Positions 5,554-27,169 of a DNA stretch of 29,606 nucleotides are shown here, one piece after another. This DNA is from a virus. Below the pieces are notes generated by a model. It ran no database searches. It was not told the DNA's origin and saw only the letters and a program-made list of their open reading frames with translations. The DNA lies in IMG/VR virus record IMGVR_UViG_3300039191_000376, positions 1 through 29,606 of that record, one strand, 5' to 3'. Positions within the stretch are counted from its first letter, which is position 1, and every line of letters starts with the position of its first letter. A program made the translations under genes and the position numbers.

Positions 5554-6750
5554 CTATATTTTAATAACTTTTAACTGCGCCTTATCTCTCATTTTCTCAG
5601 GATAAGCTTCTTTGTAGTAATTGTCCACATCATTGCGCCTGTGCCCCATAAGCTCTCGCAGTAAATCACCATCGACCCCTTTATCCTTTGCGGTACTTGC
5701 AAAGGTATGGCGGGCACATTTCATAGAAATAGCAGCACCGGTGACATCTGTAATATTTTCCATTTTGGCGGCCTTTCTTAGATCACGCCTGGCATTATCG
5801 CGCCAGGTACGGTAACCATCCACATCTTTGCGCCAGGGAAAAAGGTAGTTGCCATTCTTATTTCCATAATCCCTTATATATTGCTCCAATCTAGCAGTGA
5901 CTTTTAAATCCATGTCACTACCTCTTATTTTTGATCTTTCTAAATAAAGACGTCCCTTTATCACTTGCGATTTTTTAAGGAAATACAGGTCCGTTAGATC
6001 GCAACCGCCTAATTCAAACAAAACCATAAAGGTATCTCTGGCACGCTTCTTAATTCCGCTGAGTTCCAATGTATCCAATTTTTTCATTGAATCGGCATCA
6101 AGTCTCTTTTTACGCGCTTCAAAGGATCTTGTGCTCACTTTGTGCAATGGCTGTTTAAAAGCATTAGAATCAGGAAGGTCATGGTCTACTATCATTTTAA
6201 AGTAAAGCGTCTTTATGCGCGACAGGTATCCCACTGCTGTGGATTCCTGTAGCAGCTCATCTTCTAGCAGCTGATCTTGCAACTGTCGCACCCACCACTT
6301 GGTCACATTGCTGTATGGAATCACTTTGTAATATTGTTTTAATTTTACCAGTACCGTGTAATATCTTTTGACATGGCCAGCCATGCGATTGCGCTCTATA
6401 AGTTCCCCTTTGCGCTCATAATTGTCTTGTATCAGTTGCTTTTTTTTAATATAACTTTCTAACCATTCTATTAATTCTGGATCTTTGTCCTGCTCTACTA
6501 ATAGGTAATTCATAGCCCTATTGACATCATTAATGCGCTCCAGTTTTATTTTATAAGCTTTGATTAATATCTCATTCATGTAAGGATATAAAGAGGTAAA
6601 CTGTGGATGTGCACTGGTAATCATTTGCGCTTCTTCATTCCACTGTGCAGGAGTAGCCTCACAAATTTTAACTTGTTTTCTATTTTGTAAGTGCCCTATG
6701 TGAAGCACCACGGCCTTTTTATTCTTCACATATTTGAATTTTATCTTCAT
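5554..6750 (-). CDS. int: Tyrosine recombinase, phage integrase
   Basis: 398 aa, with the arm-binding / SAM-like core-binding / catalytic layout of Bacteroidota integrases. Catalytic-domain residues seen: K274 (RSKIRG), the box II region K344-x-x-R347-H348 (KCARHTFAS), H370 (LMGH) and nucleophile Y379 (NYYKEAY). The usual first arginine (GLRxxEL) appears as D251 in GGCDLTDL, and the first box II histidine is K344. Loss of Arg I is known for IntDOT of CTnDOT, so activity is still likely. The gene lies directly beside attP and reads away from it. Upstream it has three AGGTTGCA repeats, likely its own arm sites, which may also autoregulate it (inference). Confidence 0.95.
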   Translation of the reverse strand: MKIKFKYVKNKKAVVLHIGHLQNRKQVKICEATPAQWNEEAQMITSAHPQFTSLYPYMNEILIKAYKIKLERINDVNRAMNYLLVEQDKDPELIEWLESYIKKKQLIQDNYERKGELIERNRMAGHVKRYYTVLVKLKQYYKVIPYSNVTKWWVRQLQDQLLEDELLQESTAVGYLSRIKTLYFKMIVDHDLPDSNAFKQPLHKVSTRSFEARKKRLDADSMKKLDTLELSGIKKRARDTFMVLFELGGCDLTDLYFLKKSQVIKGRLYLERSKIRGSDMDLKVTARLEQYIRDYGNKNGNYLFPWRKDVDGYRTWRDNARRDLRKAAKMENITDVTGAAISMKCARHTFASTAKDKGVDGDLLRELMGHRRNDVDNYYKEAYPEKMRDKAQLKVIKI

Positions 6751-9273: not shown

Positions 9274-9286
9274 TTTGTTGTAGTTA

Positions 9287-9302
9287 CGCTTTCGCGAAAG
9301 CG
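9287..9302. repeat. CGCTTTCGCGAAAGCG palindrome, intergenic
   Basis: Perfect 16-bp palindrome in the 32-base gap between the genes at 9306-9941 and 8935-9273. It is followed on the plus strand by GATTT, as at 12366. Confidence 0.85.
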
Positions 9303-9305
9303 GAT

Positions 9306-9941
9306 TTAAAACAGTTTTATAACCATCCATAACAGTGGATGCGATAGAATGATGGCAAGTAATACAACTGCTATTGCACCATATTTGTACAGCGGTAAAT
9401 AGCTAATGACATGCCCATAGGCATAAGAGTCTATCTGTATAATAGTAGCAAGACGCGGCCTCTCGCTTGATATTCTTCTTTCTTTGGACCATAAATATCT
9501 TAATGGCCTTACTATTCTTAATAAACTCACTCGCTTGTCATGATGCACTCTAGGATCGCCTAGTTGCATCATCACTTTAGAAAGTAATACATCAGCCAAC
9601 TTTAAATTTTTCAAGGTGTAGGTGTAATTTATCGCGTCCAAATAGTCGTGCAATACACCAGAGATATCATAATAAAAATCACCTACTTTATGCAGCTCTA
9701 CGTCACCGCTCGCGCCGTCATATTGCTCCGGGTGTTTACTAAAATATATAAAGGCATCATTCATTAACCTGATGATAAAGCCTTCCATTCCAGCAGTAAC
9801 CATTTTATCTATAAGAAGTTTTTTATGCTCCTCCAGTGTAGCAGAATCGAGATGTGCAAACGGCTGCTTTCTCCAGGCATCTTTATTGGTAAAACCACCT
9901 ATAGAGATCTTGGACGCTATGTATTTTAGGATCGATATCAT
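9306..9941 (-). CDS. DUF1353-like phage protein with C-terminal TM
   Basis: 211 aa. The central part (GDFYYDISGVLHDYLDAINYT, then LADVLLSKVMMQLGDPR, about residues 87-130) resembles the DUF1353 family found in many phages, where a conserved VLHDYLY motif is followed by a helix of the AD.IFL.AM..LG type. The C-terminus has one strong TM (about 188-209, YGAIAVVLLAIILSHPLLWMVI). DUF1353 proteins have no settled function, and a link to lysis or host-membrane interaction is plausible here because of the neighbours. It overlaps the upstream gene by four bases. Confidence 0.68.
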   Translation of the reverse strand: MISILKYIASKISIGGFTNKDAWRKQPFAHLDSATLEEHKKLLIDKMVTAGMEGFIIRLMNDAFIYFSKHPEQYDGASGDVELHKVGDFYYDISGVLHDYLDAINYTYTLKNLKLADVLLSKVMMQLGDPRVHHDKRVSLLRIVRPLRYLWSKERRISSERPRLATIIQIDSYAYGHVISYLPLYKYGAIAVVLLAIILSHPLLWMVIKLF

Positions 9942-12350: not shown

Positions 12351-12365
12351 TATTGTTATTTATTT

Positions 12366-12381
12366 TGCTTTTGCGAAAGCG
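12366..12381. repeat. Near-perfect copy of the TTTCGCGAAA palindrome
   Basis: TGCTTTTGCGAAAGCG, with one C to T change from the consensus core, leaving a G-T wobble. It lies in the intergenic gap 12351-12397, followed by GGATTT as in the copy at 9287. Confidence 0.75.
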
Positions 12382-12397
12382 GGATTTCTAAATAAAC

Positions 12398-14737: not shown

Positions 14738-17076
14738 GTGGTCCTGGTGTCTCTTTTTTCTTGACGTCTTATCACTCTGACAAGATCATTACCACGCAAT
14801 ACAAATTCTCCTTCTATTACAGAAGTGCCACCACCGGTATCATTAAGCATGGCTTTTAATTTAGAAAGCGGTGCAATAACTTCTGGATTATTTTTTGCTC
14901 CAGCATATTCTCCTACCAGTGCATTCACTGGACCAGATACTATACCACCATTTGCAAATGGAGTGGCACCGCCACCTGCTCCAGAACCGATTCCAGCAAC
15001 TACAGATTTTATAATTGTACCTAAAGCAATTAATGCAACACCTGCAATTATACTTGGTGTTCCCACAAATGCTGCTAAAGATTTTTGCATAGCTTCTACA
15101 GTAGTACCTAATCCTATTGCAGCTTTTCCTAATGATACCAATACGTTACCTATAACAGTACTCATTAATTGAAACAAGCCTTGTAAAAAGTTACCGCCTT
15201 GAGCAGTATTTGCTATCAACTGACCAAATCCACTTGCGAAACTCTCAACAACATTTTCCATGATAGGGGTGATTGCTTCTTGAAATTCAAAAGCTCTCTC
15301 TTTCATTCTCAATAGATCTTCGTCAAACTGATCTACTGCCTCTGGCGGTATCAATTGAACGTCTGCACCTGGTTTAAATTCTGGAGCTTGAATCTGTATT
15401 CCAGTTACATTGAATTTTTTTGCTGTAGTTTCTAAATCCTCTACTGACTGAGTAACTTCTTCAACTTTTGGAGCTACAGGCTTAAGTGATTCTACTACAC
15501 CTTGATTACTGCTTATAAACTTAAGCAATTGATCTTGTAGCTTTTTAAGCTCACTAGTCTCTTTTGCAGCGTTGTCACTAATTACTTTTGCTCTTTTTCC
15601 TAAAGAACCGGTTAAAAAATCCAGAGCTACTCCACTAGTAGGATCTTGTCCAGATACTACCCTATCATAAGCTCCTGTAAACACTTTGGCAAGACCACTT
15701 CCGGCACTTGCATAAGTGTCTGTAAGTGTAGGCTGGATATTATCGGCTTGCTTAAGCTGTACATCTAAAAGTCTTTTTTGTACATCCACCAGCTTTTCTT
15801 CTGCAGCTTGTACTTTTGCTTTTTGAAGTAAGGCCTGTGTGAGCTTTTTTGTGGCTGTTGTTATGTCGTTAGTAGTGGATTTTTCAATACTTAAGTTCTT
15901 AAAATAAGCAGGATATTGTTCTTGTAACTTCTTTAAAGCTGTGGAGCGTTCTTCTTTACTTACTTTTTCATTGATTGCTGTTAAAACTAACTTGTCAATA
16001 GCAACTTTTTCTTTTGCAATGTTACCAGTTGCCGCTTTTGTAATATCATTGAACTCCATTGCAGCATCTGTGTACTCTCTAAAAACACCACTGGCTGCAG
16101 CAATAGCCACACTTAATGCAGTAATCGCTATGACTGCAAGTCCTATAGGATTAGAAGCAATCACTAAGGATAAGGCCTTAAAAGCCGCTATCAGTCCAGG
16201 GATTACTGTCGTAGCTAGAAGTCCTATTGCTATTAATAAAGGACCTATAGCTGCAAGAAGTGCTGCCACAATAACAATGATTCTTTTTGTGCTATTATCC
16301 AGATCTTTAAACCTATCAACTACACCTTTGATGTAATCGATAAATGGGATTAATGCCTCAGTTATAATTTTACCAAAATCCTCAGTCAGATCTCCTATAG
16401 AATTAGACAATTGTTTGAATGGTCCTAGTCCAGCCTTTGCAGCTGCCTCTGCAGCACCACCATATTGCTTTTCTAATTCATCTAATATGATAGTCTGTGC
16501 CTCTGCAAGTCTGCCACTTTTTGTGAGTGCGCTTATTACTTTCTTTTGATCTGTACTAAACTGAATACCAGATCTAGATAATGCACTCAAGTTTGCCACA
16601 GGATCATTAAGCGCTTTACCTAATTGAATAGAAGCACTTTTTAAATCTCCATCAAGACGAGTTGCAAGATCCAGAGCAGCTAATTGCGTGCGATCAAATT
16701 GATTGCCTGCAATATTTGTGAATGTTAGTAATTGAGCAGTGACATCTTTTAGAATTTCTTCATCACCAAATAAAGAATTGCCTTGTAGTGAACTTGCTAA
16801 CTTTTGAAGTTCTTCACTTGTTTTGCCAGCTGTGCCACCTGTAGATTTAAGACCAGCCTCTACTTGTGCAATGGCTTTTGCTTGCTTGTCAAATGCTATA
16901 ACACTGGCTGCACCTAATGCTATGATGGGAGCTGTAAGTCCTACACTAAGATTTTTACCTACCTTAGTCATCTTCTTACCTACCTTCTCCACTTGCCTAG
17001 TGGCATTTTGCATCTGGGTAGAAAACTGCTTTAAATCAGCAGCGAATTTTACATTAATTTGTGCTAAACTGGCCAT
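14734..17076 (-). CDS. Tail tape measure protein
   Basis: 780 aa. The N-terminus (MASLAQINVKFAADLKQFSTQMQNATRQVEKVGKKMTKVGKNL, helical and Ala/Lys/Gln-rich) is typical. Long amphipathic helices follow, with hydrophobic segments near 270-330 (IIVIVAALLAAIGPLLIAIGLLATTVIPG) and 630-710, and a C-terminal GNDLVRVIRRQEKR basic tail. It sets tail length and may help DNA entry. At about 0.15 nm per residue the tail would be near 115-120 nm. It lies right after the frameshifted chaperones, the invariant order in long-tailed phages. Confidence 0.95.
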   Translation of the reverse strand: MASLAQINVKFAADLKQFSTQMQNATRQVEKVGKKMTKVGKNLSVGLTAPIIALGAASVIAFDKQAKAIAQVEAGLKSTGGTAGKTSEELQKLASSLQGNSLFGDEEILKDVTAQLLTFTNIAGNQFDRTQLAALDLATRLDGDLKSASIQLGKALNDPVANLSALSRSGIQFSTDQKKVISALTKSGRLAEAQTIILDELEKQYGGAAEAAAKAGLGPFKQLSNSIGDLTEDFGKIITEALIPFIDYIKGVVDRFKDLDNSTKRIIVIVAALLAAIGPLLIAIGLLATTVIPGLIAAFKALSLVIASNPIGLAVIAITALSVAIAAASGVFREYTDAAMEFNDITKAATGNIAKEKVAIDKLVLTAINEKVSKEERSTALKKLQEQYPAYFKNLSIEKSTTNDITTATKKLTQALLQKAKVQAAEEKLVDVQKRLLDVQLKQADNIQPTLTDTYASAGSGLAKVFTGAYDRVVSGQDPTSGVALDFLTGSLGKRAKVISDNAAKETSELKKLQDQLLKFISSNQGVVESLKPVAPKVEEVTQSVEDLETTAKKFNVTGIQIQAPEFKPGADVQLIPPEAVDQFDEDLLRMKERAFEFQEAITPIMENVVESFASGFGQLIANTAQGGNFLQGLFQLMSTVIGNVLVSLGKAAIGLGTTVEAMQKSLAAFVGTPSIIAGVALIALGTIIKSVVAGIGSGAGGGATPFANGGIVSGPVNALVGEYAGAKNNPEVIAPLSKLKAMLNDTGGGTSVIEGEFVLRGNDLVRVIRRQEKRDTRTT

Positions 17077-17079
17077 GAC

Positions 17080-17457
17080 TTATATTGTTTTCATAGGACC
17101 TACTTTGTCCCAAAGTTTTATTGCTTCTTCATTTTGCTGCTCCAGATCTTGCTCTGGTTCCTGCTGTTTTTTTTCATCCCAAGGAAATTGGAAGATGTCG
17201 GCAAGCTTTAATTTACCGTATTTTTTTGCATCGTGGTGCGGTAAGATGCTGTACATAGCCAGCAATCTTGTTTGCTCCATTGTTGCTTTATGATTCTCGC
17301 TTTCGCGAAAGCGTACTCCTTTTAAATAGTTCAAAAACTGTCGAGGAGTGTGCTCATAAAAGAGATGCAGTGGCAAGGCTATCTCACCACATATCTCCTC
17401 TAGTTTATCCCAGGTTAGCGTTTCTTCTTTGGTGGAGCTTTCTTCACTGGAATCTTC
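17080..17457 (-). CDS. Tail assembly chaperone extension (T part of G-T), made by -1 frameshift
   Basis: As a separate frame it begins only with TTG at 17376, with no good start. It is open back to 17457, where it meets an A AAA AAG slippery site in the preceding gene. Read from there it gives KKEDSSEESSTKEETLTWD and then LPLHLFYEHTPRQFLNYLKG, so a 240-aa fusion G-T would be produced. The second part is helical, with FYEHTPRQFLNYLKG near its front, which resembles the T domain that contacts the tape measure. A copy of the palindrome at 17298-17313 is translated inside it (FRESEN). The frameshift is established for this position in many long-tailed phages. Here it is deduced from the sequence. 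Confidence 0.82.
   Translation of the reverse strand, partial: EDSSEESSTKEETLTWDKLEEICGEIALPLHLFYEHTPRQFLNYLKGVRFRESENHKATMEQTRLLAMYSILPHHDAKKYGKLKLADIFQFPWDEKKQQEPEQDLEQQNEEAIKLWDKVGPMKTI
17298..17313. repeat. CGCTTTCGCGAAAGCG palindrome inside a coding sequence
   Basis: Perfect copy within the chaperone extension, translated without breaking the frame (residues RFRESEN). Confidence 0.85.
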
Positions 17458-21669: not shown

Positions 21670-22290
21670 TTACTGATTATTTAAATTATACATATACTCA
21701 GCTTGAAACTCATCGAGCTTTGCTGTGTCTCTTTGTTGTCCAGACTCGTTGCCTGGTACGTTATTATCTTTTATTTTTGCTTTCGCGAAAGCGGTATCAT
21801 TAAAATCTGCATTTCTCTTTAAGGCATCTGGATTAGAGCCCACTGGAGTGATGGACCATTCTAGTAACTCCATACGCGTGAAGTAAATGTTTTCTGGATT
21901 TTCCCCTTCTTCAAAAACACCACGTCTGTACTCGTGAATGTCTGCACCGATGGATGCCATACGTAAAGTGCCGTTATCTAGCTGGCGCTTTACCTTGTCA
22001 GCAATTTCGTTTCCTTCTTCTAGATTTAAAGTGGCTACTAGATTGGTACCTTCTACACGCACCTGACTAGTGCCTATGGTTGTATCTGGATTATCTGAAA
22101 AAGAGCGATGATTGTACAGCACAACAGGGTTGCGCTGGTAACGTTCTAAATCCCATCCTGCACTTAAGAAAACGGTGCCATAAGTATCTGGGGTCTCGCT
22201 AGAGATTACAAATTCATAGCTGCGATTTGTAGGATCTGCTTCACCTGGTGCACGTAATTGTGCCGTTCTAGTTATGATATTATTTTCCAT
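21670..22290 (-). CDS. Prohead protease, HK97 family (S78)
   Basis: 206 aa. Features of the family: YEFVISSETPDTYGTVF near the start, PVVLYNHRS with H61 as the likely catalytic histidine, LRMASIGA with S113 as the likely nucleophile, and MELLEWSITPVGSNPDA near 140-156. It removes the capsid delta domain. The palindrome at 21778-21793 is translated near residues 166-172 (TAFAKAK) in what looks like a linker after the catalytic domain, so the repeat was tolerated there. The start overlaps portal by 11 bases. Confidence 0.93.
   Translation of the reverse strand: MENNIITRTAQLRAPGEADPTNRSYEFVISSETPDTYGTVFLSAGWDLERYQRNPVVLYNHRSFSDNPDTTIGTSQVRVEGTNLVATLNLEEGNEIADKVKRQLDNGTLRMASIGADIHEYRRGVFEEGENPENIYFTRMELLEWSITPVGSNPDALKRNADFNDTAFAKAKIKDNNVPGNESGQQRDTAKLDEFQAEYMYNLNNQ
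21778..21793. repeat. TGCTTTCGCGAAAGCG palindrome copy inside the protease gene
   Basis: One outer base differs from the CGCTTTCGCGAAAGCG consensus. It is in frame, encoding Ala/Lys residues in a probable linker after the catalytic domain. Confidence 0.82.
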
Positions 22291-23497
22291 CTTTTGATTC
22301 TATTATAGCGTCTATTTGTGCTAGTGTTTGTGCATTAACCGGAGTGAGTAAATTATCATGGCCATCTATGCGTGGTAAATTTTCTAGTTTACGCACTTCA
22401 TTTTGGGACATGTAACCGCTAAAAATTGCTTTGGTATAATAATCTGCACGCGACTTGATGTCTGCACGCAGAATAGCATTGTTTTGAAATCTTGTAAAGC
22501 GATCTTGTTTTTCGCTATCGGTAAAAAGCTTGCGATCACACTCACTTTCTATTTTTAACTGCCATGGCATCGCACAATCTTGCTGGTGCTCGATGCCTAA
22601 ATATTCCAAAGAAGAATAATTTGCATTTGCCATGTCTTTTAATTTGTGTGGTGCAATGTTTAAGAATCGTGCAACCTCTACTACACCATTTTTTATAGTG
22701 CCTAAGTACTCCAGCTCTGCAGGAGTAAGTGTGATTCTTTTATATTTCATGCCATCGTCAAGGACCGCAGTGCGGTGCTTCTTAGTAGAAGTCATGTGAT
22801 CATTAAACGCATTAGATATTAATGGCTTATTATCCTTATTTATATTTTTATCTGTTTCTAAAACGCCAGACGTAATGGCTTTATTTTCATAAGAACTCGC
22901 AGCAAACTCTTGTGCATTTATAGAGATGCCTAATGTTTGTGCCATGAAGTTTACCACAGAAATACCCCGCAATCCATTATCTGAGTACCCCATGACATGC
23001 AGCATATCACTACCTGGTATCATGTTTACAAATCCTTTTATGGAATAATAAAGCTGGTTTTCATATTTCTTAATATCAGAAACATCATAGTAATCTATAT
23101 AGGATAATTCTACTGGAGTGCCCGCATTATTGCGCAAAATGTATGCAAAGCCATCGCCTTTATGAATGGCGCTTTGCACGAGCATTTTTCTAAATGTGAA
23201 TGAGGTCATGAGCGGTGATGGCTCTTTACCTATGAGTCTAGCAACTGGATGGCTGCTGTCTGTTTCTACACCTTCTCCTGTGGCGCGATATACTTTAAAT
23301 GGGGTCTTTGCAATGTCGTTAGATATCTGGTCCACGGCGTTGTAATAGGCACTTACAGTAAGTGCTCTAGAAGAATTAACCTGATTTACATTGGATATGC
23401 CGTTAGCTCTAAACAAAGAGCCGAAGAACTCACTACTAGTAATAGAAGTGGCTGCTCGGCTTTGAGATTGAAAATTAAAGGCTTGTGCTAAAATCAT
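22280..23497 (-). CDS. Portal protein, HK97 family
   Basis: 405 aa, typical length. Motifs in order: SAYYNAVDQISNDIAKTPFKVYR near 49-71, HPVARLIGKEPSPLMTSFTFRKMLVQSAIHKGDGFAYILRN, ISVVNFMAQTLGISINAQEFAASSYENKAITSGVLET, MKYKRITLTPAELEYLGTIKNGVVEVARFLNIAPHKL and DIKSRADYYTKAIFSGYMSQNEVRKLENLP. This is the Phage_portal signature. The 12-subunit ring at one vertex packages and releases DNA. It is unusual that it does not follow TerL directly: about 3.9 kb of other genes lie between. Confidence 0.95.
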   Translation of the reverse strand: MILAQAFNFQSQSRAATSITSSEFFGSLFRANGISNVNQVNSSRALTVSAYYNAVDQISNDIAKTPFKVYRATGEGVETDSSHPVARLIGKEPSPLMTSFTFRKMLVQSAIHKGDGFAYILRNNAGTPVELSYIDYYDVSDIKKYENQLYYSIKGFVNMIPGSDMLHVMGYSDNGLRGISVVNFMAQTLGISINAQEFAASSYENKAITSGVLETDKNINKDNKPLISNAFNDHMTSTKKHRTAVLDDGMKYKRITLTPAELEYLGTIKNGVVEVARFLNIAPHKLKDMANANYSSLEYLGIEHQQDCAMPWQLKIESECDRKLFTDSEKQDRFTRFQNNAILRADIKSRADYYTKAIFSGYMSQNEVRKLENLPRIDGHDNLLTPVNAQTLAQIDAIIESKDGK

Positions 23498-23628: not shown

Positions 23629-23653
23629 AAAAAAATATCGTTAATAACGATAT
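23629..23653 (-). terminator. Intrinsic terminator between the insert and portal
   Basis: On the minus strand ATATCGTTATTAACGATAT (near-perfect palindrome) followed by TTTTTTT, 18 bases after the stop at 23671. The 131 bases from here to the portal start contain no gene. Portal therefore probably needs its own promoter or antitermination. I see only a weak CATCTTTG near 23530. Confidence 0.8.
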
Positions 23654-23670
23654 ACGGTTGTTAGTAGTAA

Positions 23671-24003
23671 TTAGAACTGTAGATCATTAGGTGTAAATTC
23701 CACCGTAAAATTGCATCCATCGTTTATATATCTAATCATACCTAATTGAACGCCATTATAAGCAAGTATATATTTACTACTGTCATTTATATGAAAGGCT
23801 CTCATAACTTTTGGAGCGTCTTTTAATTCCAATGGCTTACCTGTGTACTGTTCAATAACCTGTTTAATGCAATTTTCCTCGCATTTTAATTGTTGCTGTC
23901 TTATTTCATCCATCAAAGAATAACTACTACTAAGACCGTCTATACTTAATGCTTTTACAGTTTCTTCCGATAGTTCCAGTTTGTTTATTTCAAATTTTTC
24001 CAT
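23671..24003 (-). CDS. Unknown accessory protein, 110 aa
   Basis: Not recognised. A helical first half (LSEETVKALSIDGLSSSYSLMDEIRQQQLKCEENCIKQVIEQYTG) holds two cysteines four residues apart. A beta-like second half follows (KYILAYNGVQLGMIRYINDGCNFTVEFTPND). No TM or signal. It is the last gene of the insert before a strong terminator. The base composition is AT-rich compared with the structural genes, fitting a moron-type cargo gene (inference). Confidence 0.7.
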   Translation of the reverse strand: MEKFEINKLELSEETVKALSIDGLSSSYSLMDEIRQQQLKCEENCIKQVIEQYTGKPLELKDAPKVMRAFHINDSSKYILAYNGVQLGMIRYINDGCNFTVEFTPNDLQF

Positions 24004-24060
24004 ATTCTAAATTAGTTTAATTTTTGCACGCACTAAGCATAGACAAAATGTTAGAGAACA

Positions 24061-24258
24061 TTATACTGCCTTACATTTATTACATTGCTGTTTACATATT
24101 TGGTGGTCATAATCTTCACACGCATTTGCTACACATTTATCGTGGCAGTAAAACGGTTCAATAACACCAAATAAAATTAATAAAAGCCTTTGTGCTTCAT
24201 TTTCTTCTATTGCTCCTATTCGCAACTTTTCGCTAATATCTAAAATCTGTTTTCTCAT
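24061..24258 (-). CDS. Small Cys-rich protein, 65 aa
   Basis: Not recognised. A helical N-terminus (ILDISEKLRIGAIEENEAQRLLLILFGVIEPF) is followed by a Cys/His-rich end: CHDKCVANACEDYDHQICKQQCNKCKAV, seven cysteines and two histidines in 28 residues, suggesting one or two zinc sites. The pattern of a short helix ending in a CxxxC...CxxxCxxC tail is seen in many small Bacteroidota phage proteins, but I cannot name one. It is preceded by a 225-base non-coding spacer with element A. Confidence 0.68.
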   Translation of the reverse strand: MRKQILDISEKLRIGAIEENEAQRLLLILFGVIEPFYCHDKCVANACEDYDHQICKQQCNKCKAV

Positions 24259-24483
24259 ATCTTTTACTAATCTTATTCATCACGTTATATACAAGTGTGG
24301 CTTAATTAGCGTTTACTTACAGGGTATTGGCTTTGCTCGATTTTACTCTATTACAGATACGCTAATCACCTCACTTTAGGTTATACTAATATTCTTTAGG
24401 CAATCGTCATCGCTTACTTAAATTGGTAGGTCAAAACTACCCGCCACACTATATTTATAACACTGTATAACAGTAATAACTTC
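24259..24483. other. Non-coding spacer with nested inverted repeats
   Basis: 225 bases without a credible gene on either strand. Outer imperfect inverted repeats: CGTTATATACAAGTGTGGC (24283-24301) against GCCACACTATATTTATAAC (24443-24461). Inner perfect pair TTAGCGT (24306-24312) and ACGCTAA (24359-24365). A small hairpin GGTAGGTC...CTACC lies at about 24426-24442. Element A (24312-24364), shared with the spacer near 25.0 kb, lies within. Possible readings are a structured RNA, a cassette recombination site, or an unfamiliar small mobile element. Confidence 0.5.
24312..24364 (-). repeat. Conserved non-coding element, copy A
   Basis: Plus-strand blocks TTTACTTAC, 4 bases, TATTGG, 7 bases, CGATTTTA, 11 bases, ATACGCTA. 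The same blocks recur at 24991-25042 with spacings 4, 6 and 11. The variable bases between blocks differ, so the blocks appear to be selected. Confidence 0.65.
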
Positions 24484-24633
24484 TTACTGTTTTTTTGGTT
24501 TCAAGTGGCTGGGCGGTTTTATTATATATGTTCTAGGTGTTTTGTCAAAAGTCATATAAATACCTAATGCTAAAAATCCTAATCCAAAAACAACGCCAAC
24601 AATCACTATTCCTAATATGCTTAATTCATTCAT
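24484..24633 (-). CDS. Small single-TM protein, 49 aa
   Basis: Read by hand in the gap: ATG 24633-24631, stop TAA 24486-24484, with an AT-rich GTAAAATT just before the start as is usual in Bacteroidota. The product starts MNELSILGIVIVGVVFGLGF. One TM covers about residues 5-28, then a short basic tail rich in Pro and Lys (KPPSHLKPKKQ). Nothing else explains this hydrophobic open frame. Function unknown. A small inner-membrane protein in a moron-like island could be an exclusion or host-modifying factor (speculative). Confidence 0.65.
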   Translation of the reverse strand: MNELSILGIVIVGVVFGLGFLALGIYMTFDKTPRTYIIKPPSHLKPKKQ

Positions 24634-24679
24634 AATTTTACGTTACTACTGTCATACAATTCCATTGGCAGTAATTAAA

Positions 24680-24919
24680 CTAATCGCATATTAATTTGCT
24701 TGTATTACTTATAAATCCACTAATAGTGTTATTTTCAAAATCTACAGAATCAACATCTATACTATCTGAAAGTTTTTGAAACCAAACAGAATTAATAGGC
24801 TTAAATTTTATATAGTGTCTATTTAAAGAAGCAGGTTCTAATTTTAGAATTTTACCTATATATCTGTTTTCAAAAAAAGAATAGACTTTATTTTGAAAAT
24901 CACTTTTATTTTTTATCAT
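24680..24919 (-). CDS. Unknown accessory protein, 79 aa
   Basis: Starts at the ATG at 24919 (MIKNKSDFQNKVYSFFENRY). The frame is open to a GTG at 24946. Charged and mixed in structure (GKILKLEPASLNRHYIKFKPINSVWFQKL; SVDFENNTISGFISNTSKLICD). No domain recognised. It lies between the two conserved non-coding elements, with the 49-aa TM gene 46 bases downstream, so the two genes may form one cassette. Confidence 0.6.
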   Translation of the reverse strand: MIKNKSDFQNKVYSFFENRYIGKILKLEPASLNRHYIKFKPINSVWFQKLSDSIDVDSVDFENNTISGFISNTSKLICD

Positions 24920-24990
24920 TTCATTAAAATTAACTACTACCAACACTATATAAAAATAATAGCTAAGGCAGTGTTTTTCGCTACTATTTT

Positions 24991-25042
24991 TTTATTTACC
25001 TGCTATTGGTTTAACCGATTTTAGGTGTCCATTTATACGCTA
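24991..25042 (-). repeat. Conserved non-coding element, copy B
   Basis: Plus-strand blocks TTTATTTAC, 4 bases, TATTGG, 6 bases, CGATTTTA, 11 bases, ATACGCTA, homologous to copy A and in the same orientation, inside the 196-base gap 24920-25115. It is flanked by an exact direct repeat CGCTACTATT at 24979-24988 and 25038-25047. The gap has no gene that I can support. Confidence 0.65.
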
Positions 25043-25115
25043 CTATTCTTATAATTTAACGCTATGCAAAATCTTACAGTAGTGCTATTAACGTCATCCA
25101 GTCCTCGCCTAATTA

Positions 25116-25397
25116 TTAAGAGTTAAATTTTTCTATTCTCCATCCTACTATGCTATTATAGTAAGATATTTTACCTTGATCATTAGTCCATTCACGACCT
25201 CTTACATTAAAACTCACACTTACATTATCTGCGATTTTATATAGATCTATGAGATCTACATTATCCTGGTGCAATTCTATTAGAATGTGCTGTGGGTATT
25301 GCTCTACTGTAGAAATAACTACTTCACGTTTTTGAAAGCCGTTTGCTCCAAAGGACGCTGTATCTCCTATTTGTTTTACTGATCCTGTGATTTTCAT
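25116..25397 (-). CDS. DUF3127 protein, OB-fold ssDNA-binding type
   Basis: 93 aa, whole-length match by pattern to DUF3127: MKITGSVKQIGDTASFGANGFQKREVVIST near the start, EQYPQHILIELHQD, NVSVSFNVRGREWTN and YYNSIVGWRIEKF at the end. The GFxKREVVxxTxEQYPQ and NxRGREW motifs are the family's hallmark. These small Bacteroidota proteins are thought to be OB-fold ssDNA-binding or recombination factors. A DNA-metabolism gene between terminase and portal is out of place, so this stretch may be transcribed early despite its map position. Confidence 0.88.
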   Translation of the reverse strand: MKITGSVKQIGDTASFGANGFQKREVVISTVEQYPQHILIELHQDNVDLIDLYKIADNVSVSFNVRGREWTNDQGKISYYNSIVGWRIEKFNS

Positions 25398-26386: not shown

Positions 26387-27169
26387 TTATAGTTTTGACT
26401 GTGAATTTATTTTGCGTTCTAATTTTTTAATTAGGAATTGTGATTTTGCTATCTCTGGTCCATGTCGGTGAATTGTATTGCGCAGCATATTTTCAGATTT
26501 GGTTATTTTTTCTAAATTACCTGGTGAGCAATCTAGTGTGTTGCCATTTTTAAAAGTTACTATCTCATTATCTTCTACCGGTCCTATTTCTTTTCGGTAC
26601 ACATAGCGCTGGAGCAGGTCCCAATTTCCTTTTGATATTCTTATATAGGTGTATACCGCACCGCTTTTATCTGATCTTTGCCTGGTCACTCCATCGGTTA
26701 ATGTGTTGTAAGGCTGGTTGCCTTTTTTGAATTGGTTGTTTTTAAAGTTTTTTAATTGATCTGTTGACATCCATTCTGCAGCAGGAATTCCTTTATTTTT
26801 TGGAATATGTCCTTTTTTAAAATGGTTGTTTCGCTTTCGCGAAAGCGCAATTTCTTTAGGCACTTCTAGGCCTAATCTTTTAAGCCTATTAAACGTTCCA
26901 AAACCACTGCGATTTAATTGCATCGCCATTCTTTTTATAGGAATTTTAAGGTAATTATCTATCAGATATTGGTCATCTTTTTTTGTGAATTTAGTTCTGA
27001 GAGCAGCCTTGCGAGATTTAAAATCTTTAGTAAGTGTTGCAGGAATAACAATTCCTAGAACTTTATACCTAGCACGCACATAGGTAGGTGACTTTTTTAT
27101 CACCTTTGCAATATCATTTGCAGATATTTTTAGGTAATTATCTTTTATGTAGGTGTCGTGTGAGTGCAT
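26387..27169 (-). CDS. Free-standing HNH homing endonuclease-like protein
   Basis: 260 aa. Two copies of an HTH/NUMOD-type unit are at about 5-43 and 66-104 (DTYIKDNYLKISANDIAKVIKK; DQYLIDNYLKIPIKRMAMQLNR), then a twice-repeated FKKG-x-x-P motif (117-122, 147-153). A C-terminal HNH_3-like part follows (LLQRYVYRKEIGPVEDNEIVTFKNGNTLD, SPGNLEKITKSENMLRN). The first His of the nuclease motif seems replaced by Q187, so catalysis may be lost. A palindrome copy (26832-26847) is translated between the HTH pair and the FKKG motifs (LSRKRN). It sits next to terL, a common target region for homing nucleases. It may now be a DNA-binding protein (inference). Confidence 0.8.
   Translation of the reverse strand: MHSHDTYIKDNYLKISANDIAKVIKKSPTYVRARYKVLGIVIPATLTKDFKSRKAALRTKFTKKDDQYLIDNYLKIPIKRMAMQLNRSGFGTFNRLKRLGLEVPKEIALSRKRNNHFKKGHIPKNKGIPAAEWMSTDQLKNFKNNQFKKGNQPYNTLTDGVTRQRSDKSGAVYTYIRISKGNWDLLQRYVYRKEIGPVEDNEIVTFKNGNTLDCSPGNLEKITKSENMLRNTIHRHGPEIAKSQFLIKKLERKINSQSKL
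26832..26847. repeat. CGCTTTCGCGAAAGCG palindrome inside the homing-nuclease gene
   Basis: Perfect copy, translated in frame at about residues 108-113 (LSRKRN), in the linker between the HTH repeats and the FKKG motifs. Confidence 0.85.

Follow-up and report, generated by a model that had tools for sequence, protein, structure and literature searches.

Evidence for an integron-like cassette array in a flavobacterial phage

Introduction

What are two short non-coding elements, built of the same blocks in the same order, doing among the small genes of a virus? The question is raised by a virus record of 29,606 bases (below, the window, i.e., the whole stretch of DNA that was analysed), whose structural and island genes are on the minus strand; the order at the island is portal, four small unknown ORFs, a DUF3127 ssb-like gene, HNH endonuclease and terminase. 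The genes for the portal protein (22280–23497, minus strand) and for the DUF3127 single-strand DNA-binding-like protein (25116–25397, minus strand) are fixed genes on the opposite sides of the island. Since a capsid protein, a DnaB helicase and a phage-type integrase (5554–6750) are also encoded, the virus is probably a temperate phage. A preliminary description of the locus offered two readings of the elements, called A and B: a regulatory RNA leader or a cassette recombination site.

Virulent phages, one of them a Polaribacter phage, have been reported to carry clusters of attC sites, and IntI1 recombined one of the two sites tested from the Polaribacter phage in E. coli (Qi et al. 2023, PMC9892861). 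None of the eleven attC covariance models of PMC8352920 is for Bacteroidota. Here, we argue that the island is an integron-like cassette array in a flavobacterial phage, with B as an attC-like recombination site and A as a mobile cassette that has no gene. We put the probability of this reading at roughly 0.8, on the grounds of what can be read from sequence: the sites themselves, their covarying arms, the matching ends of cassettes, swaps resolved to a single base and the linkage of host arrays to one kind of recombinase.

Results

Both non-coding copies were found as described, at 24312–24364 (A) and 24991–25042 (B). The spaced 22-base pattern TATTGG-N6/7-CGATTTTA-N10/12-ATACGCTA had two matches in the window (24325–24364 and 25004–25042) vs. 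none for the reversed-control pattern. Across the whole viral collection, its matches were limited to two near-identical phages (L003 and L004), and a looser pattern added L010 and L011, contigs in which just the A type was present. The nested inverted repeats ascribed to copy A were confirmed (plus-strand z −4.25, with none of 200 shuffles folding equally well), and so was the direct repeat CGCTACTATT in copy B, one occurrence of which makes up the left arm of an attC-like site. As for the four blocks, they turned out to be just the loop portion of a larger structure.

A simple scan for AAC/GTT palindromes was too noisy in AT-rich DNA (1–4 hits per 1.7 kb control), and a covariance model was therefore used instead. 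Sites were collected from bacterial and viral sequence with the arm pattern TTGTATATG-N78/106-TATATACGGTGTT, which matched at least 119 bacterial genome stretches (among the matches listed, nearly all from Bacteroidota and mostly from Flavobacteriaceae) and, besides these, 23 viral stretches; nearly all were 115–119 nt long. The sites form a family whose arms covary strongly and whose span from AAC to GTT is about 121–125 nt. The model, R1, was built on an alignment of 35 diverse sites, from which the window and the homolog of B in Tenacibaculum phage JQ were left out. AAC and GTT are invariant across the 35 sites, 95.3% of the cells in the arms are paired, and 11 of the 14 pairs of the long helix have changed on both sides. 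The arm covariation score was 0.433, as compared to 0.122 for shuffled versions and no more than 0.126 for slid ones; because the sites were collected with the arm pattern, the conservation of the pattern letters partly reflects how the sites were chosen, while the covariation at the other arm positions does not. The sites thus have the make-up of attC, i.e., AAC and GTT cores enclosing an imperfect palindrome that is conserved in pairing and not in sequence. The preliminary description had let its proposal stand or fall with further copies and with compensatory changes between them: more copies do exist, in bacterial genomes and in viruses, and compensatory changes are many in the arms of the family. 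Sites of the family are present in 102 of 120 sampled Flavobacteriaceae genomes, as well as in many phages.

Beside R1 matches of about 131 nt, a second size class with sites of about 195–210 nt was seen in the Flavicella marina array (L169) and in other hosts. The largest viral array in our material, with more than 20 attC-like sites in 14.6 kb, is in L147, a part of a 93-kb IMG/VR contig. One site lies on a 727-kb contig (L105, CALSPC010000003.1) of a MAG titled Rhodobacteraceae, by transfer or mis-binning.

When the window was searched with R1 without filters, three sites were obtained, all on the minus strand and all within the island, the next best match in the 29.6 kb reaching 13.6 bits. 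Element B corresponds to the site at 24938–25067 (54.2 bits, E 1.6e-9), with its blocks at 24991–25042 in the loop; we conclude that B is an attC-like site as judged by its match to the family model. The second site (24159–24290, 42.2 bits, E 6.3e-7) overlaps the start of the ORF at 24061–24258 (minus strand, 65 aa), for which no known family was found, and the third (23928–24056, 50.2 bits, E 1.2e-8) overlaps the start of the ORF at 23671–24003 (minus strand, 110 aa), the cassette gene adjoining the boundary in the window phage. The left core of B is GCG, not AAC, so that this site may be degenerate, and the right core of the site at 23928–24056 is CTT, not GTT; with one degenerate core each, both may be inactive. 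Having three R1-called sites within 1.2 kb and no integron integrase, the island has the composition of a CALIN (at least two attC sites within 4 kb, without an integron integrase). The only tyrosine recombinase in the window, a distant phage integrase, was considered as the cassette enzyme and rejected, with an identity of 24% confined to 62 residues. Since two more attC-like sites and a boundary site share the island with the elements first noted, its limits should be widened to 23638–25067.

The arms and length of B agree with those of its homolog in phage JQ, where the loop between these arms is different. The JQ site is part of an array in which palindromes with AAC...GTT cores separate small genes and methyltransferases, and the JQ loop module is also present in the insert of L004. 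Therefore, the loops of sites appear to be replaced.

Element A is a cassette without a gene (24284–24461, 178 bp, no strand assigned) that moves as a unit. It has a GTT core on the 24461 side and an AAC core on the 24284 side, its ends are complementary, and the blocks at 24312–24364 sit within an inner hairpin. All 178 bp recur in L010 (7 differences) and 165 bp in L011 (7 differences), one pair among these differences being compensatory (T84–A91 to G–C). The neighbour genes are different in L010 and L011, and the similarity stops at the cores. Other short gene-less cassettes adjoin the boundary in L003 and L008. The view of A and B as homologous elements has thus to be divided: they do have the same loop module, but they are not the same kind of unit, B being a full attC-like site and A a gene-less cassette.

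Among the other cassettes of the island, that of the small ORF at 24680–24946 (minus strand, 88 aa with a GTG start) has the complementary ends GTTGGTAGTAGTTAAT and TTAATTACTGCCAAT; family searches with this ORF gave no confident family. The segment comprising the 49-aa ORF at 24484–24633 (minus strand) and its flanks (24457–24646) is 76% identical at the DNA level to positions 15500–15694 of Winogradskyella phage Peternella_1 (L013). Peternella_1 is a Mu-like phage, and the segment it has in common with the window may itself be a long attC-like site.

The polarity of genes relative to attC differs between hosts and phages. In the hosts (L016–L134), flanking ORFs are on the strand opposite to attC in 243 cases vs. 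21 on the same strand, and the recombinase gene is co-oriented with the cassette genes; on the viral contigs (L135–L155), 31 flanking ORFs are on the same strand as attC vs. 5 on the opposite one. The viral pattern holds in the window, JQ, phi19:3, Peternella_1, P12002L and L009. It is thus wrong to suppose that genes and attC point the same way in all arrays. The direction of phage transcription may select for same-strand cassettes.

These data bear on the other proposal for the elements, namely, that A and B are transcribed regulatory leaders controlling the small genes behind them. A does fold better than shuffles, it precedes small genes, and it has one compensatory pair between phages. 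However, B alone folds no better than chance, the covariation is located in the attC arms, the flanking genes in hosts are on the other strand, and A precedes unrelated genes and moves with the cores as its limits. Moreover, an Rfam search of the window at the gathering score gave no matches, and a relaxed one gave a single chance match. We regard RNA leaders as very unlikely. Of the two readings offered initially, the cassette recombination site is strongly supported; the RNA leader is not, nor is it needed.

The exchange of cassettes could be followed between related phages. With about 99% identity to the window, L003 and L004 nevertheless have 1,457 extra bases at the GTT core at 23660–23662 (no strand assigned), as seen from the alignment of these near-identical phages. 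The junction in the window reads ...ATATACGGTT-GTT-AGTAG, and those in L003 read ...ATATACGGTT-GTT-GTAAAC...AAACC-GTT-AGTAG, such that only GTT is common to the junctions. The extra block of L003/L004 (9530–10666 of L004, minus strand) holds three small ORFs and one gene-less cassette.

The GTT core belongs to a boundary site of 25 bases, TCGTTAATAACGATATACGGTTGTT (23638–23662, plus strand), which adjoins the portal gene and is identical in ten phage contigs, window included, representing two backbones. Seven different cassette starts follow it among these ten contigs, and the cassettes diverge between phages from the last base of the boundary site onward. A stretch of 1,500 bases on the phage side is 98.3% identical among L003/L004, L204 (the contig of L008) and the window; comparison of their cassette sides revealed no similarity. 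From its position, which is similar to that of attI, we infer that the boundary site is attI-like. In L009, where the portal is 100% identical in the best segment, no cassettes lie between ssb and portal, and the array is elsewhere. The comparison of related phages thus bore out the suggestion that genes might be swapped between them: small genes are exchanged at exactly these sites.

Furthermore, the ends of the cassettes match. Across 20 cassettes, all but one from hosts, the ten bases following GTT paired with the ten preceding AAC in the same cassette at 9.25 of 10 positions on average. The two halves of one integrated site, which are the ends of different cassettes, were paired at 5.36 of 10 (39 sites), and shuffled ends at 5.55 of 10, with a maximum of 6.95 in 2,000. 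Such complementarity of a cassette's own ends is expected if the cassette circularises by joining them and inserts at the core. The units therefore have both marks of gene cassettes, moving with a crossover at the core and carrying complementary ends of their own.

Could the same picture result from mosaic exchange, i.e., from homologous or illegitimate recombination in which the conserved arms provide short homologies and no site-specific recombinase takes part? Phage genomes are mosaic, and the conserved arms and the boundary site could indeed act as homologies. However, the cassette side shares only GTT at the exchange point and the similarity ends there, while complementary ends within a cassette fit circular cassettes and not illegitimate exchange. 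We therefore hold mosaic exchange to be the least probable of the explanations considered, and prefer cassette recombination at the cores.

To find a candidate enzyme in hosts, the integron-integrase profile TIGR02249 was searched in 28 array-bearing genomes. Tyrosine recombinases matched it in all 28, always below the cut-off, and no IntI over the cut-off was found in any of them; the sub-cut-off matches say little, because integron-free control genomes match below the cut-off too. The recombinases beside the arrays are proteins of about 390 aa (mostly about 375–415 residues), with about 95–100 extra N-terminal residues followed by the SAM_4 and Phage_integrase domains. Their best NCBIfam family is NF040815, and their alignment falls into two subgroups, 33–34% and 47–52% identical to the first sequence. 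Xer enzymes (XerC/XerD/XerA) are the closest solved relatives by sequence, with 222 bits for the XerC-like 4a8e and 216 bits for XerA 5hxy, leaving the N-terminal extension uncovered. A HARP domain in this extension was considered and is not claimed (18.4 bits, weak and below the cut-off, in one of 11 proteins, L157 residues 21–52). The IntI profiles and VchIntIA match the host recombinase in two pieces, skipping the region of the IntI additional domain; the host candidates miss positions ~181–237 of the TIGR02249 profile. They thus lack the IntI-specific additional domain of a canonical integron integrase.

A profile of the array-linked recombinases found strong matches in 85 of the 120 Flavobacteriaceae genomes, where the presence of sites and a strong recombinase match are not always paired, in either direction. 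For 20 recombinase loci, up to 4 kb behind the gene was taken. Sites were contained in 17 of these loci, and all 48 sites were downstream of the recombinase and on the opposite strand to it; the orientation outweighs the frequency as evidence, because the loci were partly picked for sites seen on the same contig. In 14 of the 20 loci, an attI-like motif, ATATAACNAGTT, comes shortly behind the stop codon of the recombinase, with a similar one in the earlier loci, so that most of the 20 have, as canonical integrons do, an attI-like site beside the recombinase gene. The linkage between recombinase and arrays is positional, and from it we infer a role of the recombinase as the cassette enzyme.

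According to another explanation, the island is an ordinary CALIN of plain attC sites served by the canonical IntI of another integron, with the ~390-aa recombinase as a bystander. Some phage CALINs, including that of a Polaribacter phage, do have sites on which IntI1 is active (PMC9892861), and the core, arms and cassette ends all obey integron rules. On the other hand, none of the 28 array-bearing genomes has a recombinase above the IntI cut-off, and the arrays are consistently attached to the ~390-aa recombinase, with an attI-like motif. The ordinary CALIN thus seems to us unlikely.

Discussion

The integron-like reading of the island suggests the following mechanism. One strand of each site would form a long, imperfect hairpin; strands would then be exchanged at the AAC/GTT core by a tyrosine recombinase, presumably one that the host supplies. 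Circular cassettes would thereby be excised from the array or inserted into it, the insertion occurring preferentially, and probably in the main, at the conserved boundary site beside the portal gene. The phage might benefit from exchangeable accessory genes such as methyltransferases. As the recombinase has no additional domain, which is treated as defining integron integrases (PMC9668308), we speak of an integron-like function and not of a canonical integron.

The nearest counterparts are the phage CALINs, exemplified by P12002L, a phage of marine Flavobacteriaceae that also has an integrase-less attC-like cluster with small genes. In P12002L, a methyltransferase gene lies between sites that share the arm sequences, and these are likely the two tested in PMC9892861. 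R1 did not detect the short sites of P12002L, and therefore the link to the experimentally tested sites is one of arm similarity only. In contrast to those CALINs, we have here mostly the long ~123-nt site, differences by whole cassettes between near-identical phages, a common boundary site and a gene-less mobile cassette; in addition, gene polarity is shown to be reversed, and we propose a host recombinase.

Sedentary chromosomal integrons are alike in having a cassette array with complementary ends, an AAC/GTT core, a covarying imperfect palindrome and an attI-like site beside a tyrosine recombinase gene; they differ from the system considered here in that its recombinase lacks the IntI additional domain and has ~95–100 extra N-terminal residues. 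In Treponema integrons (PMC3607928), the recombinase gene is also co-oriented with the cassette genes, but Treponema has a true IntI. As for the Xer relatives of the host recombinase, the likeness is one of sequence. Xer enzymes work at dif-like sites and are not known to serve cassette arrays.

On balance, we lean slightly towards the view that marine Flavobacteriia have an integron lineage of their own, with an Xer/XerA-like recombinase that has no IntI additional domain and bears an extra N-terminal domain, a conserved attC of ~123 nt and an attI placed after the recombinase gene, while their phages would carry integrase-less arrays with a capture boundary site and reversed attC polarity. 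A search of the open-access literature (subscription journals and preprints being outside its scope) brought up no earlier description of the flavobacterial system, and this integron-like gene-capture system, which is very common in the probable marine hosts, appears to be new to description there. The presence of the site family in 102 of 120 Flavobacteriaceae genomes contrasts with the IntegronFinder 2.0 survey, where a complete integron in Bacteroidetes proper was named only for Salinibacter (PMC9024848). Should the enzyme be the linked recombinase, cassette capture would not require the IntI additional domain, and abundant marine bacteria would have a large unrecognised pool of mobile genes. 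Moreover, phage arrays that differ by whole cassettes between near-identical phages provide a direct route to study the gain of small accessory genes.

The window has, besides, a repeated palindrome that as far as seen is outside the cassette system: GCTTTCGCGAAAGCG occurs at 9284–9313, 12363–12392, 17297–17324, 21775–21804 and 26829–26858.
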